Source: Candidatus Poribacteria bacterium (GTDB taxonomy: Bacteria > Poribacteria > WGA-4E > B28-G17). From it: a DNA stretch of 33,593 bases. The translations under genes and the position numbers were made by a program. This document shows positions 3,625 through 24,224 of this stretch, piece after piece. The notes beneath the pieces were generated by a model. The model was not told where the DNA came from. It saw only the letters and a program-made list of their open reading frames with translations, and searched no databases. Positions within the stretch are counted from its first letter, which is position 1. Each line of letters starts with the position of its first letter. The stretch spans positions 1-33,593 of the forward strand of contig JAGGXZ010000070.1 in the NCBI GenBank assembly GCA_021162805.1. The letters are read 5' to 3'.

Positions 3625-6600
3625 TTACCGCGATCGGCGGGAATTGATGAGCTCGATCAGATCCTCCGCCTCCTTTGTCTTCTTCAGCGAGAGCGCCATC
3701 TCGGCCTGATCCAACGCCTCCTGCAGTTTGCCCTTCCCAAGCAGCACCTTTGCGAGGTTCAACCTGACCTCGTATACGTTCGGATTCACCCTGATCGCCT
3801 CTCTGAGCACCTTTTCGGCCTCATTTAGCCTCCCATGGGCGGAGTAGATGGAGGCCAGATTAACTCGGGGCGCGAGCAGCTTCGGATCGAGCTTCAGCGC
3901 CCTCTTAAGTTCCGATATCGCCTTCTCATCCTCGCCCTTGTCCATATAAAGTGAGCCGAGCATGCTGTGGGCTAAAGCGAGATTAGGCTCCTTCCTCAGA
4001 ACTTTTCTTATCTCCTCTATCGCTCTATCGAGATCCCCCTTCTTCTGATAGAGGGTAGCGAGGCTGCCGTGAATAAGGGGCATATCGGGGGCGAGTTTAA
4101 GAGCGTCCTCATACTCCTTTATGGCCCCGTCGATATCCCCCCTCTTCTCAAGGAGCATACCGAGGCTCAGCCGCGCCTGTAGATCCTTCGGATCGAGCCT
4201 TTTAACATGCCTGCAGGCGCTTATGGCGTCATCCACCTTATTCATCTCCTGATAGATCGAAGCGAGCTTACGCCAGGAATCCAGATCCTCCGGATCGCCC
4301 CTCACCTTTCGCCTCAGCCCCTCCGCTATCTTCTCCAACTGGGCATCTATCCCGGCTATAGCCACCCTGCGGGCCACCTCCATGTTATACCGTATCGTCC
4401 CGTCCTTGGGGTTCATCTGCCAGGCTTTGTAGGCCAGCTCAGCCGCCCTTTCGTAGTTGTGCCTGGCATACTCGATCTGAGCATCTATCAGGACCTGGGT
4501 GGCATCAAAGTATCTCTTCAGCTCCTCCTCGATCCTTTTCCGCTCCTGAGGGGTATCGCCGTAGTTCGTCAGATATGGCATCACGCTCTGTCTAAACGGC
4601 TTCATCGCCTCGATGTTGCGGGCGGTGGTGTCCGAAAGGCCAGGGCCGAAGAATTCGAGGTATGGATGGGAATCGGTGTGTACCCTGCCGCCATCCACAA
4701 ACCGTCTGATCGTCTCCTCGTCCATCATGAAGGAATCCAGGAGTGAGATGGCGTCGAGATCGTCATGCGCCAGGCCCTCCCTCACGCCAGGCTGATTTGC
4801 CCTCCGGACGAAATCCCTGTAATTTATCCTCAGGGGTTTCGGGGTGCCGATGAGGATCACGAAATCAGGCGTGTATTTATACCATAAGGTGGTATGCGGG
4901 AAGACGTCGATGAAGGTGCGGATGATCATCTTGAAATACTTCTCCGGAAGGCGGTGGAGCGGAACCCATTGACACATCACCCCGTTCGGGGTGAGGATTC
5001 GCTTACATAGCTCGTAGAAATCCCTGCTGTAGATGTTCGAGCTTCCGGAGCTGACGAGGGGATGGATTATGCCGGTGGAGATCATATCGTATTTTCGATC
5101 TGTCGTCAGTATGAAGTTACGTCCGTCCTCCACGAATAGATGAAGCAGAGGGTTTTCCAGGACGTTCCCGTTGACATGGGCGAAGAACCGCCTCGCCGCC
5201 TTCACCACGCCCGGGGAGATCTCCACGGCGTCAACCTTGACGTTGTGCTGGGTTATCGAATATGACGTCACGCCCATGCCGAAACCGACCACCAGCGCCC
5301 GTTTGGGATCGGGATGAAGGAGGAGGGGGAGGTGGGCTATGACCCTATGCGACGGCGAATCCCAGCGCGAGTCCTCGGCCGCCTGATTGGTATCGACGTA
5401 GAGCAACCTTGTGCTGTCCTCATCCTCCAGCACGGTCACGCTGGCGTCGACCCCTTCATCGTAGAAGAGCAACCTGCCCTTGGGTCTCTGGTATCGAAAG
5501 ATAGCGCTTTTCAGGACTATGGGGTTATGGCTGACGGCGAACATCGCCCCCTCCGATCCCAGAAGCAGTATCAACGTGAAAAGCAACATGCCCTTAGCCA
5601 AGCCGCTCCGCTGAAGCAGCCACCACCCGAGCCCGATGTTCAAAAGCGATACGATCAGCACGCCCCGCTGGATGCCGATTAAGGGGATGATGATAAATCC
5701 GGCCACGAACGAGCCGAATATCGATCCTAAGGTATTAGCAGCATAGACCGAGCCCACGTCCCTGCTGACCCGAGATATGCCGGCGACGAAGAGCTTCACG
5801 ACAAGCGGAAAGGTCGCCCCCATCAGAAAGGTGGGCGGAAACATCATGACGAAGGCAGGGAAAAAGCGGCCCGTGATGAAGTTGAACCAGTTCGGCCTCC
5901 TGAAAAGCGCTCCGATCGAGTAGATCTCGCCGAAAAGCGGCAATAACAGCATGGCGAACAGGCCTATGAGCATCTGAACGACGCCTAAGGCCAGGAGATG
6001 TCTCGTCCATCGATCGGAGAGCTTTGCGAAGATGAAGCTGCCGACCGCTATCCCGAGGAGAAAGGCCGAGAGCATGGTCGTAAAGGCATATGTCGTGCTG
6101 CCTAGGAAGAAGACCAGTATCCTGGTCCAGAAGACCTCATACGCCAACGCGCAGAAGCCGGAGATGGCGGTGATCCAGAGGGCGAGGGCTCTATAGGGGT
6201 TAGTGGTTAGTGGTGAGGAATGAGGAGGAATCCCTTCGCGCTCTCCCGGCTCATCTGTCGTTTTTCGCTGCAGATACACGGCAAGTCCGGCGACGGCGAA
6301 GTTAAGCAGCGCCGCCAGGGCGATCGTCCACGGGATGCCTAACAATTTCATCAGGGCGAATCCCGCCCCGAGCGTCCCGATCACCGCTCCGAAGGTGTTT
6401 AAAGAATAAAGTCCGCCCACATCCCAGCCCAGATCCTCCATCCTTTTGACAACTCCTCTGCTTATGGCAGGAAGGGTGGCGCCCATGAGCGTGGTGGGGA
6501 TAAGCAGGACGAGGAAGGCGAGGATGAAGCGGATGAGGGATATGACGTAAAATGAAAAGCCCACGGATCTATGTATCGCGACGTAGAGGGAGGTGAGCAG

Positions 6601-6878
6601 TCTGAGGATTCCGGGGAAAAGGAGGGCAAAAGCGCCTATACCCACTTCAAGGGCGGCATACAGGAGAAGCGGACGACTTAAGCGGTCGGCCCTCCTTCCC
6701 AGGAGAAAGCTGCCCAGAGCCAGTCCGCCCATGAAGGCGGTCAACACGGTGGAGGTTGCATAGACCGTGCTTCCGAAGACCAGCGTGAGCATCCGGCTCC
6801 AGACCACCTCATAGATGAGCCCGGCCGCGCCGGATACAAAGAAGATAACCAGAGCGAGCGGTTTGATCCTTCTACCCA

Positions 6879-6882
<4 letters not shown>
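3625..6882 (-). CDS. Membrane-embedded spermidine-synthase-like protein with C-terminal TPR domain
   Basis: 1085 residues in three parts. Residues 1-450 form two homologous hydrophobic halves, each opening with a similar G-x-x-x-L-x-YE-V-x-W-x-R segment (20-30 and 242-254). Residues about 465-700 are a spermidine-synthase-like Rossmann domain. Residues about 775-1085 are consecutive TPR repeats. The synthase part looks catalytically altered: GFGMGVT (533-539) replaces the SAM/dcSAM-binding GGGDG, and the catalytic Asp loop reads STGIIHP (602-608) without Asp. It is therefore probably not a polyamine synthase. A linker at 217-230 (PPHSSPLTTNPY region) is encoded by a short tandem repeat. The start overlaps the nadE stop by 4 nt (ATGA), so the two are translationally coupled. 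Likely an inner-membrane protein of unknown role. Confidence 0.85.
6196..6234. repeat. Short tandem repeat inside the linker of the spermidine-synthase-like protein
   Basis: Read on the plus strand, GGTTAGT occurs twice in a row followed by GGTGAGGAATGAGGAGGA. The tract encodes the low-complexity linker (residues about 217-230) between the two membrane halves. Its composition differs from the flanking coding DNA, suggesting an inserted simple sequence that kept the frame. Confidence 0.5.
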
Positions 6883-19880: not shown

Positions 19881-20936
19881 ATGAAGGAAAGCATGACCCC
19901 TAAGGAAAGGTGGCTCGCCGTCCTGAACAGGAAGAAACCGGATAGGATCCCGATGGACTATTGGGCCACCGGAGAGGCAACTGAAAAGGTGATGAAATAT
20001 CTGGGTTGTTCCAGCGTGGATGAGATGTTTAAGAGACTACACATAGATAGGGTCATCGGCGTTGGACCCAGATATATCGGCCCCCCGATAGAGCCGGGGT
20101 ATGACATGTACGGGTGCCGGTACGAAAAGGTCAACTACGGCACGGGGGTGTATTCGGAATGCGTCTATCATCCCCTTGCCCAGTATAACTCGATCGAGGA
20201 GATCGAAAGGAACTACACGTGGCCGACCGCCGATTGGTTCGACTACTCCGTCATACCAGATCAGATCAAAGGCAGGGAGATGTATCCCATCAGGGGTGGA
20301 GGCTCTGAGCCGTTCCTGACCTATAAGAACCTCCGCGGGATGGAACAGGCATACATGGATCTGATCCTCAATCCGGATCTGGTTCACTATTGTCTGGATA
20401 AGCTCTTCGACTTCTGTTATGAAAACACGCTCCGCATATATGAACAGATACCCGGTAAGGTGAACATCTCATATGTGGCCGAGGATTTCGGCTCGCAGGA
20501 GGGGTTGCTGATATCCCGCGAGCATATAAGAGAGTTTTTCATACCGCGGATGAAACGTATGATAGACCTCGCCCATCAGGCAGGGGCGTATGTTTTCTTC
20601 CACAGCGATGGGGCCATAAGGGAGATCATACCCGATATGATCGAGGCCGGAATAGACGTGCTCAACCCGATCCAGTGGCGATGTAAGGGGATGGATCGCA
20701 AGGGGCTAAAACGGGATTTCGGCGATAAGGTGATCTTCCACGGCGGTGTCGATAACCAGTATACCCTTGCTTTCGGAACCGTCGAGGAGGTACGCGAGGA
20801 GGTGATATACAACATCCAGGTCCTGGGGGAAGGAGGAGGCTATATCCTGGCGCCGTGTCACAACATCCAGGCGGTCAGCCCGCCTGAAAACGCGGTTACC
20901 ATGTATGAAACCGGATATGAATACGGATGGATCTGA
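19881..20936 (+). CDS. Uroporphyrinogen decarboxylase family protein
   Basis: 351 residues with the URO-D fold: MTPKERWLAVLNRKKPDRIPMDYW at the start is characteristic (split here: MTPKERWLAVL, KPDRIPMDYW), then EDFGSQEGLLIS, then FFHSDGAIREIIPDMIEAGIDVLNPIQ and KVIFHGGVDNQ. This subgroup is distinct from the haem enzyme HemE and is common beside catabolic genes, where members transfer methyl groups from corrinoid proteins or act on unknown substrates. No corrinoid protein gene is nearby. It is followed 16 nt later by a DapA-like aldolase and shares its promoter. GGGGAGGAAGG lies ahead of the ATG. The actual reaction is unknown. Confidence 0.85.
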   Translation: MKESMTPKERWLAVLNRKKPDRIPMDYWATGEATEKVMKYLGCSSVDEMFKRLHIDRVIGVGPRYIGPPIEPGYDMYGCRYEKVNYGTGVYSECVYHPLAQYNSIEEIERNYTWPTADWFDYSVIPDQIKGREMYPIRGGGSEPFLTYKNLRGMEQAYMDLILNPDLVHYCLDKLFDFCYENTLRIYEQIPGKVNISYVAEDFGSQEGLLISREHIREFFIPRMKRMIDLAHQAGAYVFFHSDGAIREIIPDMIEAGIDVLNPIQWRCKGMDRKGLKRDFGDKVIFHGGVDNQYTLAFGTVEEVREEVIYNIQVLGEGGGYILAPCHNIQAVSPPENAVTMYETGYEYGWI

Positions 20937-20952
20937 GATCAAGGAGGAGAGG

Positions 20953-21906
20953 ATGGACGATATAATCAGGCCGTTGATTGTGCCCATGTACACTCCGTTC
21001 GACAGAGATGGCGCTCTGGACGAGAGAGGCGTGGTTGAGCTGATAGGATGGCTCATCGAAAAAGGCGTCCGATCCTTCTACGTGCGGAGCGGTGTCGGCG
21101 GGAAATGGCTGATGGGAATGGAGGAGGTGAAAAGGCTCGCCGAGCTATCCGTCGGGGCGGCCAAAGGTAAGGCTAAGATCATCGTCGGATGTGAGGGCGA
21201 ATGGGACGGCGATCTGAGAGGACGACCCGATCCCGAAACCTATCTGAGCCAATCATGTGAGCTGGCATTATATGTTCAGGATATCGGCGCGGACGGCGTA
21301 TTTTTGACCATGCCGTTCGCACTCAAACCCGGCCAGGGTGAATCGGCGATCGATATCTCGTTGAGATATTTCGCCGAAGTCCGCCGCTCCACTTCCCTTC
21401 CCATACTCCTTCATCAGATGAGGAACGTCCCTGAGGAGTTCAAGCTAAGCCCGGACATGCTAGAAGGGCTACTTACACTGGGCGGATTCGTCGGCATCAA
21501 GGTCTCAACTGATAGCGCGAGTGAGCTGGAAAAATTCAGCGAGATGGTGAAAGGGAGGGATTTCGCCCTCATATGCGGCAACGAGGCTCTGTGGCTCGAG
21601 GGGATCAGGATGGGCGCGATATCCGTCATCGGCGGCGGCTGTAACGTCTATCCTGAGGTCATCGGTGCGGTCTGGGATAGATTCCAGGCCGGCGATGAGA
21701 AGGGGGCGCGAAAGGCACAAAACGCCGTCATAGCCGCTTTGAAAGCCCCTGGGGGGCTTTCAGGGATCATCTGGAGACAGTATCTGATCCGAAAGGGCGT
21801 GAAGATGGAACCGTATGATCGGTCAGGCAGCGAGCCATATCCCAAAACCATCGTCGACGAGTTCGAGGCGAAGGTGGACGGGATCATTCGTCCATATCAA
21901 GGGTGA
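20953..21906 (+). CDS. DapA-like (dihydrodipicolinate synthase family) lyase/aldolase
   Basis: 317 residues from the ATG at 20953-20955, chosen because AGGAGGAG precedes it; an earlier ATG lies inside the URO-D gene. The TIM-barrel family is clear from PMYTPFDRDGALDERGV and the Schiff-base lysine in GFVGIKVSTDS. The tyrosine that shuttles protons in family members (normally L-Y-N-x-P) is replaced: the strand reads PILLHQMRNVP. The Thr-Thr/Gly-Glu loop after the second strand is also changed (VRSGVGGKW). It is therefore unlikely to be a true dihydrodipicolinate synthase. The stop overlaps the convergent membrane gene by 10 nt. Confidence 0.82.
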   Translation: MDDIIRPLIVPMYTPFDRDGALDERGVVELIGWLIEKGVRSFYVRSGVGGKWLMGMEEVKRLAELSVGAAKGKAKIIVGCEGEWDGDLRGRPDPETYLSQSCELALYVQDIGADGVFLTMPFALKPGQGESAIDISLRYFAEVRRSTSLPILLHQMRNVPEEFKLSPDMLEGLLTLGGFVGIKVSTDSASELEKFSEMVKGRDFALICGNEALWLEGIRMGAISVIGGGCNVYPEVIGAVWDRFQAGDEKGARKAQNAVIAALKAPGGLSGIIWRQYLIRKGVKMEPYDRSGSEPYPKTIVDEFEAKVDGIIRPYQG

Positions 21907-24185
21907 TCCCGGCGGGTCCGCCGCGCATCCAGGGCGATCCATACCAACACGCAGAAGCCCAAAATGGCGGTGAGAAAGCATGTGTCGTATATGCCCAATA
22001 ACGGTATCAGGAAAGCGCTCGTCAGAAAAGCCCCGAGGCAGGAGCCGAAAAGATCCAGGCCGTATAGCAGCCCGACCACCTTCCCTACACGCGGGAGACC
22101 TGCCAGGACGATGTCGTTGGCGAGGGGGAACTGGAATCCCCCTATGAATCCGGCGATGATCGGGAGGAGGGAAAAGGCGGTCTGAACGCTCAAAAATGCG
22201 GGTTTGCCGCCCCCGAATCGGGCAAGGAAGGCTATCACGAGAGCCAACATCAGCGGATACAGACAGATCGAAACCTGAACCCAGATGTAAGTCCTGATCT
22301 TATCGCGGGATCTGTCCATCCATCCGCTTACCGCCCAACTGCCGAAGACAAGACCGATCATGAAGGATGTCAGGATGATGCTGAGCTTATAGTAGACATA
22401 GCCGTATAGAACCTGGAAGGCCAGCATCACCACAACCTGAAAGGATATCTCCGAAAACCCTGTCGTCCCGATGGAAAGCGCTATACCGCTTATGCCCTCA
22501 CGATTGAGCCTCCTCGCCAAAAGGAAGCCGACTGCTGAAACGATAAGGATCAACGCGGCCAGATGCCAGGTTCTCACCCCTGTGATCCATCCCGCCAACC
22601 TTCCCCCTTCCGTCCTCTGTCTGAACTGCGAGCTCCATAACGCCATATCGTAGAAATATCCTATCGGCCGATAATCCCTGTTCAACCTGACCTTGCCGGG
22701 TTTTTCAAGCACCTTCCTGAGATAATCCACCCTATCCGGTGTGAGGCGGTAGGGGATGTAGTATTCGCTGACGAAGAGGGTTTGAATTTTCCTCTCCTTA
22801 AGCCTTGAGATCAAAACACTAGGGTTCAGGGTCAAATTCCGACCGTCGGGCTTTTGACCGATGATGAAGTTCACCCCTCCGGGCAGAACCACCACATCGG
22901 GGAAAACCTTGAACATCGTTCTCTGTATGGATCTGAGGAGCTCTCTCTGCTCGAAACTCAGGTAGTTTTCCGATGAGGTTAAACTCAGGGATATGATCCC
23001 ACCGGGGTTCAATATCCGGTTGGCCTCCTTGAAGAACTCCAGCGAGTAGAACCTGTTCAGCATTGCGGTATGTGGATCGGGAAGATTGATTATGATCACA
23101 TCGAATCTCTCCTTTGTCCTCTTGATGAAGAACCTTGCGTCGGTATGGATCAGCTTAACCCTCGGATCGCTCAGGAACTTCAGTTCATCTCTGAGATATC
23201 TGCGGGCGATGCGAACAAGGGTGGGATCGAGCTCGATGTAAATCAATTTCCCTATCCCGTGCTTTAACACCTCATTCCCGCTGCCGTTAAGCCCTCCGCC
23301 GATGAGCAAAACGTTTTTGGGATGAGGATGCTCGAGCATCACGTAATGGACGCTCTCCTCGGCCGAAAGCCTATCGCCGGAGGTGAAAACCCATATGCCG
23401 TTCTCGAAGAAGTTATACTGTGAATCGTAGGAGGTGACGACGATATTGCCGTAAACCGAGTTCCTGTTTTCCTCCACCTTCATTCCCCTCCACTGTATGG
23501 CGGAGGAGAACTCGTTGAGCTTTTCCGGAATGCCAGGAGGGATGGAACATATCAGCAAAGCCAAAAAAAGAGCTGTAAGCCCAATCGGTATGGGATCTCT
23601 ATGTGGGACTTGGAGGATCAAGGCTGTTAGGAAGCATACCGTTCCCACCACGGCGGCTATCTCGAAGGGATTGAGCATCCTGATCAGGATTAACCCCGCC
23701 AACAATCCTCCGATACTGGCTCCCAATCCTTCAAACAGATAGGCTTTCCCGACACCTGAGGAAAGGCGGTCCGTGGATGAGGCGACGGATCTGGCGACGA
23801 GCACGAAGAGGTATCCCAACGTCAGGCAGTAAAGCGACAACACTAGGAAGACCGAGCCGATCATATAGGGCAATCCCATGATCTGTCCGGGCGTCAGCTT
23901 GAATATGAGTTTGACACTTCTGGCGGCGAATATGGAGATCGATAGGATGAAGGGGAGGGCGATTTGAATGAGGGAGATGAGCCTAGTTCTATTTTTCACC
24001 GAATCCGCCGTCTTCCCCAGCGCCCAGCTCCCCACGCTTCCCCATAGCAGCCATGCGCCGAGGGCAAGACCGAGAGCGAGTTCGTTGCCGTAGAAGACAA
24101 CCATCAGCTCCCGCATCAACACTATCTGACCGATCATGGATGAAAATCCGACCAAAAAGGCGCTTAGAAGCAGAGCGACGGGCAT
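21897..24185 (-). CDS. Membrane-embedded spermidine-synthase-like protein
   Basis: 762 residues. N-terminal membrane helices (1 to about 215), a spermidine-synthase-like domain (about 235-450), then a second set of helices (about 510-755). The cofactor loop reads GGGLNGSG (about 296-303) rather than GGGDG, but the acidic residue binding the substrate ribose (IYIELDP) and the Asp of NLPDPHTAMLNRFYS (about D370) are kept. It is thus closer to a working aminopropyl- or methyltransferase-like enzyme than its paralogue at 3625. Start at the ATG 24183-24185, with AGGTG 7 nt upstream, rather than the GTG one codon earlier. It stands alone with its own promoter. Inner membrane; substrate unknown. Confidence 0.85.
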   Translation of the reverse strand: MPVALLLSAFLVGFSSMIGQIVLMRELMVVFYGNELALGLALGAWLLWGSVGSWALGKTADSVKNRTRLISLIQIALPFILSISIFAARSVKLIFKLTPGQIMGLPYMIGSVFLVLSLYCLTLGYLFVLVARSVASSTDRLSSGVGKAYLFEGLGASIGGLLAGLILIRMLNPFEIAAVVGTVCFLTALILQVPHRDPIPIGLTALFLALLICSIPPGIPEKLNEFSSAIQWRGMKVEENRNSVYGNIVVTSYDSQYNFFENGIWVFTSGDRLSAEESVHYVMLEHPHPKNVLLIGGGLNGSGNEVLKHGIGKLIYIELDPTLVRIARRYLRDELKFLSDPRVKLIHTDARFFIKRTKERFDVIIINLPDPHTAMLNRFYSLEFFKEANRILNPGGIISLSLTSSENYLSFEQRELLRSIQRTMFKVFPDVVVLPGGVNFIIGQKPDGRNLTLNPSVLISRLKERKIQTLFVSEYYIPYRLTPDRVDYLRKVLEKPGKVRLNRDYRPIGYFYDMALWSSQFRQRTEGGRLAGWITGVRTWHLAALILIVSAVGFLLARRLNREGISGIALSIGTTGFSEISFQVVVMLAFQVLYGYVYYKLSIILTSFMIGLVFGSWAVSGWMDRSRDKIRTYIWVQVSICLYPLMLALVIAFLARFGGGKPAFLSVQTAFSLLPIIAGFIGGFQFPLANDIVLAGLPRVGKVVGLLYGLDLFGSCLGAFLTSAFLIPLLGIYDTCFLTAILGFCVLVWIALDARRTRRDHP

Positions 24186-24224
24186 CACGCATCACCTGAG
24201 GGTTGAGGCTATCTATCAGCAGGG

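Follow-up and report, generated by a model that had tools for sequence, protein, structure and literature searches.

In the large URO-D superfamily, numerous proteins of uncultured bacteria lack an assigned substrate. In the accessible portion of PMC10418091, the S-methyltransferases of the superfamily are described as using His-Cys-Cys, and the O-methyltransferases as having one or both Cys swapped for Asp/Glu or for non-coordinating residues. The accessible portion of PMC13222342 names MtvB, OdmB, VdmB and MtoB as corrinoid-dependent O-demethylases of the superfamily and describes certain of its demethylases as being without zinc. No report of corrinoid-dependent demethylation of sugars was found among the titles and abstract openings listed from the open-access literature.

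The DHDPS/NAL enzymes include DapA (4-hydroxy-tetrahydrodipicolinate synthase, EC 4.3.3.7), with its Thr-Tyr-Tyr triad and GTTGE box, YagE, a 2-keto-3-deoxy sugar acid aldolase, and L-2-keto-3-deoxyarabinonate (L-KDA) dehydratase. According to the accessible text of PMC9795676, L-KDA dehydratase has a Schiff-base Lys171 and a base, Glu173, and dehydrates its substrate with no cleavage. For the residue at the Tyr place, the accessible texts of PMC9795676 and PMC13398020 differ (Gln143 in one, Glu174 in the other). L-KDA dehydratase is a precedent for a Schiff-base dehydratase that lacks the Tyr and is nonetheless active.

A two-gene operon on a poribacterial contig

The window, that is, the whole stretch of 33,593 nucleotides that was analysed, is one contig (C70) of a 4.3-Mb assembly of 232 contigs. 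It carries a plus-strand pair of genes flanked on either side by minus-strand genes. The earlier note had described this pair as a URO-D gene coupled with a DapA-like gene whose product reads LLHQ, and both were confirmed at the positions it gave.

19881..20936, plus strand: URO-D superfamily protein, 351 aa (ORF list, Pfam/NCBIfam matches, homologues)
20905-21906, plus strand: DHDPS-family ORF as listed, its opening overlapping the URO-D gene (ORF list)
20940..20952, plus strand: purine-rich ribosome-binding stretch, AAGGAGG, before ATG 20953 (sequence)
20953..21906, plus strand: DapA-like (DHDPS/NAL fold) protein, 317 aa, from its likely start onward (homologue alignment, tree, model)

Judged from the sequence, ATG 20953 is the likelier start of the DapA-like gene, rather than 20905. 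This ATG follows AAGGAGG and lies about where the alignment with the homologue begins, so the gap between the two genes is probably 16 bp. Scans for repeats, promoters and terminators gave nothing telling, with 3 promoter-like sites against 2.2 expected. Two other window genes caught our attention: positions 21897-24188 encode a 763-aa protein with a spermine-synthase-type domain (Pfam) between hydrophobic stretches, and positions 3625-6882 encode a longer protein that resembles it by eye.

The URO-D protein belongs to an apparently undescribed clade

The URO-D protein matched PF01208 with 85.1 bits (E 6e-24, cut-off 23.9), the best stretch covering residues 140-347 only; the genome holds 18 URO-D matches. 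Its best named models were methylcobalamin:CoM methyltransferase and MtaA/CmuA, at 56 and 48 bits, both below cut-off. No HemE model was among its four NCBIfam matches at E <= 0.01, and PDB 3cyv matched at E 4e-4. The closest of the named models and the best match in the PDB (4ay7) are MtaA/MtbA methylcobamide:CoM methyltransferases, but the score is 56 of 244 bits and these enzymes have His-x-Cys where the URO-D protein has His-x-Asp.

20601..20609, plus strand: His241-Ser-Asp243, putative metal ligands (His-x-Cys in MtaA); H and D in 13/13 clade members
20856..20861, plus strand: Cys326-His327 (P-C-H-N), putative third ligand region; in 13/13 clade members, with H327 near-invariant in a wider set

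Among 84 poribacterial genomes we found three orthologues, at 71, 67 and 65% identity, the next best match being at 41%. A set of 386 genomes yielded further orthologues at 67-76% in G110, G128, G121 (two) and G364, and four additional genomes of the G110 phylum carry one (5/17 in total). The resulting clade of 13 sequences, including that of the window, spans at least four phyla and separates from 19 other URO-D proteins with 100/100 support. H-x-D-G and P-C-H-N occur in all 13 members. The His-Cys-Cys zinc site of the MtaA/MtbA S-methyltransferases is absent from the clade, which has His-x-Asp throughout, and a carboxylate takes the place of the Cys ligand as in the UroD-superfamily O-demethylases, as far as alignment position tells. 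The third ligand is uncertain, since phmmer aligns the Cys of P-C-H-N one position away from that of MtaA; the structure model of the URO-D protein (pLDDT 42) was too poor for use. The clade is apparently an undescribed enzyme group. Elsewhere in the phylum, one genome (G082) had 75 first-look URO-D candidates, whereas 73 of the 84 genomes had 0-4 each, a strong lineage-specific expansion.

Corrinoid, folate and glycosidase genes lie near some URO-D orthologues

We examined the surroundings of 12 orthologues from 11 genomes, in stretches of 5.9-20 kb, several of which end at contig ends. A RACo-type corrinoid activator lies 2-4 kb from three of the 12 (G110, G526, G514). In G070, a same-strand run holds a second URO-D gene, an MTHFR/Pterin_bind fusion, FTHFS, DUF1638 and the orthologue; this is the one orthologue of the 12 with DUF1638 nearby. 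The accessible part of PMC5764234 reports fitness data that tie DUF1638 to B12 reactivation, its authors proposing no specific role, and that of PMC12478193 likewise links DUF1638 to B12 reactivation.

Carbohydrate genes recur at other orthologues. GH4 is just downstream in G525 and G516, the latter also having a solute-binding protein and a sugar-type ABC permease, and a GH106 gene is just downstream in G514, with a homologue 6 kb away in G110. A second URO-D gene lies just upstream of the orthologue in G110, G526, G525 and G516. The remaining contexts are mixed: an AAA/MinD-type ATPase upstream of one of the G121 copies, DUF6807 and a penicillin-binding protein in G007 (DUF6807 is near the G070 orthologue too), NadA adjoining the orthologue in G364, with another URO-D gene 6 kb away, NadA also near in G110 and G526, and nothing telling in G011. 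The carbohydrate bias of these contexts is partial.

A corrinoid protein was found near none of the 12 orthologues when all open frames were compared with a profile of four poribacterial corrinoid proteins. G000, G070, G007 and G011 each have one corrinoid protein, on a contig other than that of the clade member; in the genome of the window, the single match shares a contig stretch with an MTHFR-like gene.

The ligand set in 13/13 clade members (H-x-D/P-C-H), together with the corrinoid activators, folate C1 enzymes and glycosidases near several orthologues, suggests O-demethylation. Counting against it are the activator near only 3/12, DUF1638 near 1/12 and a corrinoid protein near 0/12, and the methionine-type or unrelated neighbours of some orthologues. 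On balance of sequence evidence, corrinoid-dependent O-demethylation is the most likely role of the URO-D protein, with methylated sugars or sugar derivatives as possible substrates. Within its barrel, a metal bound by His-Asp-Cys(-His) would polarise the oxygen of the methyl ether; a Co(I) corrinoid on another protein would take up the methyl group, which would then move to tetrahydrofolate. In the G070 run, the fusion (L107, 11025-13517) is an 830-aa MTHFR-DUF5981-Pterin_bind protein, the last part resembling methyl-THF:corrinoid methyltransferase, and a one-chain folate-to-corrinoid route through it is conceivable.

It is quite unlikely that the URO-D protein is instead a methyltransferase of methionine or thiol metabolism. 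Such a role would fit G128, where Cys_Met_Meta_PP and Abhydrolase_1 genes, which we take to be metY/metX-like, are divergent from the orthologue, and G526, where a homocysteine S-methyltransferase gene is. It would also fit the use of a RamA-like protein and DUF1638 by B12 methionine synthase, mentioned in the accessible part of PMC5764234. The glycosidase contexts speak against it, as does the Asp that stands for the first Cys of His-Cys-Cys in 13/13 sequences, under the ligand rule given in the accessible portion of PMC10418091. The O-demethylase that we prefer would share with MtvB, OdmB, VdmB and MtoB the superfamily, the carboxylate ligand pattern and, at 3/12 orthologues, an activator nearby, a likeness by description. 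Those enzymes take methoxylated aromatics, whereas several contexts of the clade hold glycosidases.

The DapA-like protein has lost the DapA triad and retains the Schiff-base lysine

The DapA-like protein matched PF00701 with 100.7 bits (E 8e-29, cut-off 22.1). It scored 76.1 bits with the DapA equivalog TIGR00674, below the cut-off of 206.15. The genome has five DHDPS matches; a separate, canonical-looking DapA lies on another contig (C212, 370 bits).

21088..21102, plus strand: SGVGG, replacing the GTTGE box (alignment)
21313..21321, plus strand: PFA, replacing PYY (alignment)
21412..21414, plus strand: CAT codon of His170 (ORF numbering), at the catalytic Tyr position (alignment)
21499..21501, plus strand: AAG codon of Lys199, the retained Schiff-base lysine (GIK) (alignment)

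We take PYY to be Tyr106-Tyr107 and the catalytic Tyr to be Tyr133 in E. coli DapA numbering. In an alignment of 38 rows (35 other DHDPS proteins, the window protein twice and its G001 homologue once), the DapA-like protein reads LLHQ (PILLHQ) where relatives have LYN or LYQ, and His170 aligns with a Tyr present in 35/35 others. Lys199 is conserved in every row. All three triad positions (GTTGE Thr, Tyr107, Tyr133) are substituted and the GTTGE box is absent, SGVGG and PFA going beyond what the earlier note had seen. The G001 protein (L025/L076), from another poribacterial assembly and about 60% identical, has LLHQ, PMA and SGVGG; since its His is identical, a sequencing error is unlikely.

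A two-sequence AlphaFold model of the DapA-like protein (pLDDT 81) gave a full (beta/alpha)8 barrel. Modelling of the His in place of Tyr had been proposed, and in this barrel the His ends strand 5 and the Lys ends strand 6 (H154 and K183 in 317-aa numbering). The domain, the barrel and the strand-6 Lys place the protein in the DHDPS/NAL superfamily (PF00701). Compared with known structures (VIA), the model scored Z of about 30 against sialic acid aldolases and against YagE (29.8); NAL, YagE and DapA tie at Z 28-30 and so are not separated, and Foldseek also returned matches. The best 50 VIA rows contain no L-KDA dehydratase entry (3FKK, 3FKR, 7C0C), which excludes nothing. With DapA, the protein has PF00701, the fold and the Lys in common, whereas all three residues of the Thr, Tyr, Tyr triad are replaced.

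From the sequence and the barrel model, we infer that Lys199 would form an imine with a sugar-derived 2-keto acid, and that His170 may take over proton transfer from the absent Tyr, in a lyase or a hydro-lyase. Like the DapA-like protein, L-KDA dehydratase retains the Lys but not the Tyr, and its substrate box has diverged. It has Glu at Lys+2, whereas the DapA-like protein has His170 and K199-V-S; with that Glu missing, the DapA-like protein is not an L-KDA dehydratase. A decaying or non-catalytic protein is improbable: all three triad residues are lost in both the window and G001, but identity of about 60% across two genera, with the Lys, the His and the surrounding motifs kept, an intact frame and a ribosome site argue otherwise.

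The His is a lineage-specific change within a divergent DHDPS subfamily

A two-sequence profile run on 386 genomes found clearly stronger relatives in G364 (tandem copies, 2e-68 and 1e-60) and G359 (4e-49), and weaker matches at E <= 1e-25 in G064, G128, G302, G083 and a third G364 gene. With a five-sequence profile, the subfamily was found in 51/68 genomes of the G359 phylum, some hits being contig-end fragments, and, among 64 genomes of the G364 phylum, in G364 and G400 (one genus), the remaining matches there being weak (E 1e-30 to 1e-37). We aligned 30 loci of the G359 phylum, four G364/G400 proteins, the window and G001 (36 rows).

The members share an RSGxG-like box, an insertion, usually with RPD, after the usual G-x-G loop, P-x-A/P-x-G, (I/L)YQ, K-x-S and IGQG (IG[QG]G); the GTTGE box and Tyr107 are missing from the 36 aligned rows. 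The window protein has the RSGxG box, a P-D insertion and xQ at the Tyr place. In the tree, the 36 members form one clade (100/99), with the G064, G128 and G302 proteins as sister group, and the window and G001 proteins pair at 100/100. Tyr followed by Gln occurs in 34/34 aligned non-poribacterial members and His-Gln only in the window and G001, indicating that the His is a lineage-specific change within an already divergent subfamily. We found no name for this subfamily, which is apparently undescribed.

The protein could still be an ordinary sugar-acid aldolase with the His doing the job of the Tyr, which we consider doubtful. Of the sequences in the PDB, YagE comes closest to the subfamily profile, the Lys is present in 36/36 and the Tyr in all the non-poribacterial members aligned. 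However, the triad is changed at all three positions, the GTTGE box is gone and the insertion follows the G-x-G loop. YagE itself, at about 22-23% identity, keeps the Tyr and GSGGE, and with the window protein by itself, DapA 6xgs scores slightly above YagE.

Among 20 regions of the G359 phylum, L156, L155, L076 and the window, the subfamily genes had no widely recurring partner. By eye, sugar ABC-type genes adjoin two of them (L208, L210) and a cysteine-synthase-like gene adjoins two others (L213, L216). In G001, the nearest relative examined and of the same family as the window genome, the DapA-like gene is followed by a xylosidase/arabinosidase-like gene, broken at the contig end, with HepT/MNT-like genes (by eye) divergent from it. 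Viral and plasmid collections held no close relative, plasmid matches being below 60% identity and about 25% in the rows displayed. A genome scan with back-translated patterns matched only the G001 record; the scan was insensitive, as the G359 and G364 families came up only with the profiles.

Two side observations concern DHDPS genes. The tandem subfamily pair in G364 (L155, 9753-11851) has a counterpart in G400, and its copies are quite unlike each other in the tree. In L054 (1557-4049), a Tyr-bearing DHDPS gene lies between two PhyH-dioxygenase-like genes (by eye); demethylation by PHYHD1-type dioxygenases is reported in PMC12709175, the accessible part of which mentions Poribacteria.

The operon is real in form and the pair is not conserved

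The proposal that neither protein carries out its namesake reaction is supported by the DapA score far below cut-off, the absence of HemE from the models listed as matches, the lost catalytic residues and the canonical-looking DapA elsewhere. With that separate DapA and the 18 URO-D matches, neither gene appears, on present evidence, to be required for lysine or haem. The earlier note had set as its counter-case a close and characterised homologue that shares the substitutions, and none was found; the distant L-KDA dehydratase lacks the Tyr and has other residues there.

The further suggestion that the pair defines a catabolic step was not supported. Phylogeny and neighbourhoods of both families showed that each protein forms its own clade and that the pair is not conserved. 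Among all open frames of the stretches around the 12 URO-D orthologues, a DHDPS gene was near none, and the G001 DapA-like locus, a contig of 3,390 bases, has no URO-D gene. The best URO-D match anywhere in G001, a 76%-complete assembly, is at 39%, so that no close orthologue was found there. A single co-operonic occurrence is weak evidence, since about 0.04-0.05 URO-D/DHDPS adjacencies are expected by chance (an estimate from 18 URO-D, 5 DHDPS and an assumed ~4,000 genes).

We rejected the pair as a conserved module for now: in a set of 146 loci (84 URO-D, 47 DHDPS), some repeating one place and many with only 1.5-kb flanks, both genes occur only in the window copies and L145. In a set of 58 loci, URO-D with DHDPS was seen, besides the window, in L192 (G468, divergent), L151/L157 (one place, G302) and L155 (7 kb apart). 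Given the adjacencies in G082 (L145) and G302 (L157) and the divergent genes in G468, a loose tendency of the two gene types to meet is possible. Two of these places stand out in themselves: L145 (2804-13242) has GFO/IDH/MocA, DHDPS, URO-D, NagA-like (by eye) and corrinoid-protein genes on one contig, and L157 (2503-7784) has DctP and DctM (TRAP transporter), two URO-D genes, one just below the Pfam cut-off, and DHDPS in a row.

The two proteins might serve a single pathway, in which an O-methylated sugar acid would lose its methyl group to the URO-D protein and the resulting 2-keto-3-deoxy acid would be dehydrated or cleaved by the DapA-like protein. The 16-bp spacing, with the DapA-like gene having its own ribosome site, speaks for this, as do GH4/GH106 by four URO-D orthologues and the glycosidase-like gene by the G001 homologue. 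The adjacency in L145, the G302 TRAP-transporter run, whose DHDPS belongs to the sister group, the divergent G468 genes and the presence of both gene types in G364, on different contigs, can be added. Nevertheless, we consider a single pathway unlikely in view of the 0/12 count and of G001, and because the two genes meet in so few of the 84 URO-D loci, the L145 and G302 cases being of other subgroups.

Discussion

We tentatively favour two separable enzymes encoded in a two-gene operon, at somewhat less than even confidence: a corrinoid-dependent methyltransferase of the O-demethylase type and an enzyme that would form a Schiff base with a 2-keto acid of sugar origin. A wider scenario, rather unlikely, is that uncultured Poribacteria and several other phyla use the URO-D clade for anaerobic corrinoid-dependent O-demethylation of methylated sugars, and that in the window a DHDPS enzyme with His for Tyr would receive the product and dehydrate or cleave the sugar-derived keto acid. 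If such a joint methyl-sugar pathway were true, it would comprise two enzyme types not yet described.

Each family also has an interest of its own. The URO-D clade offers a sharp, testable assignment, O-demethylation, possibly of sugars, and the DHDPS subfamily, with neither the GTTGE box nor Tyr107 and with a branch in which Tyr became His, is a natural experiment in the rewiring of a class I aldolase active site.
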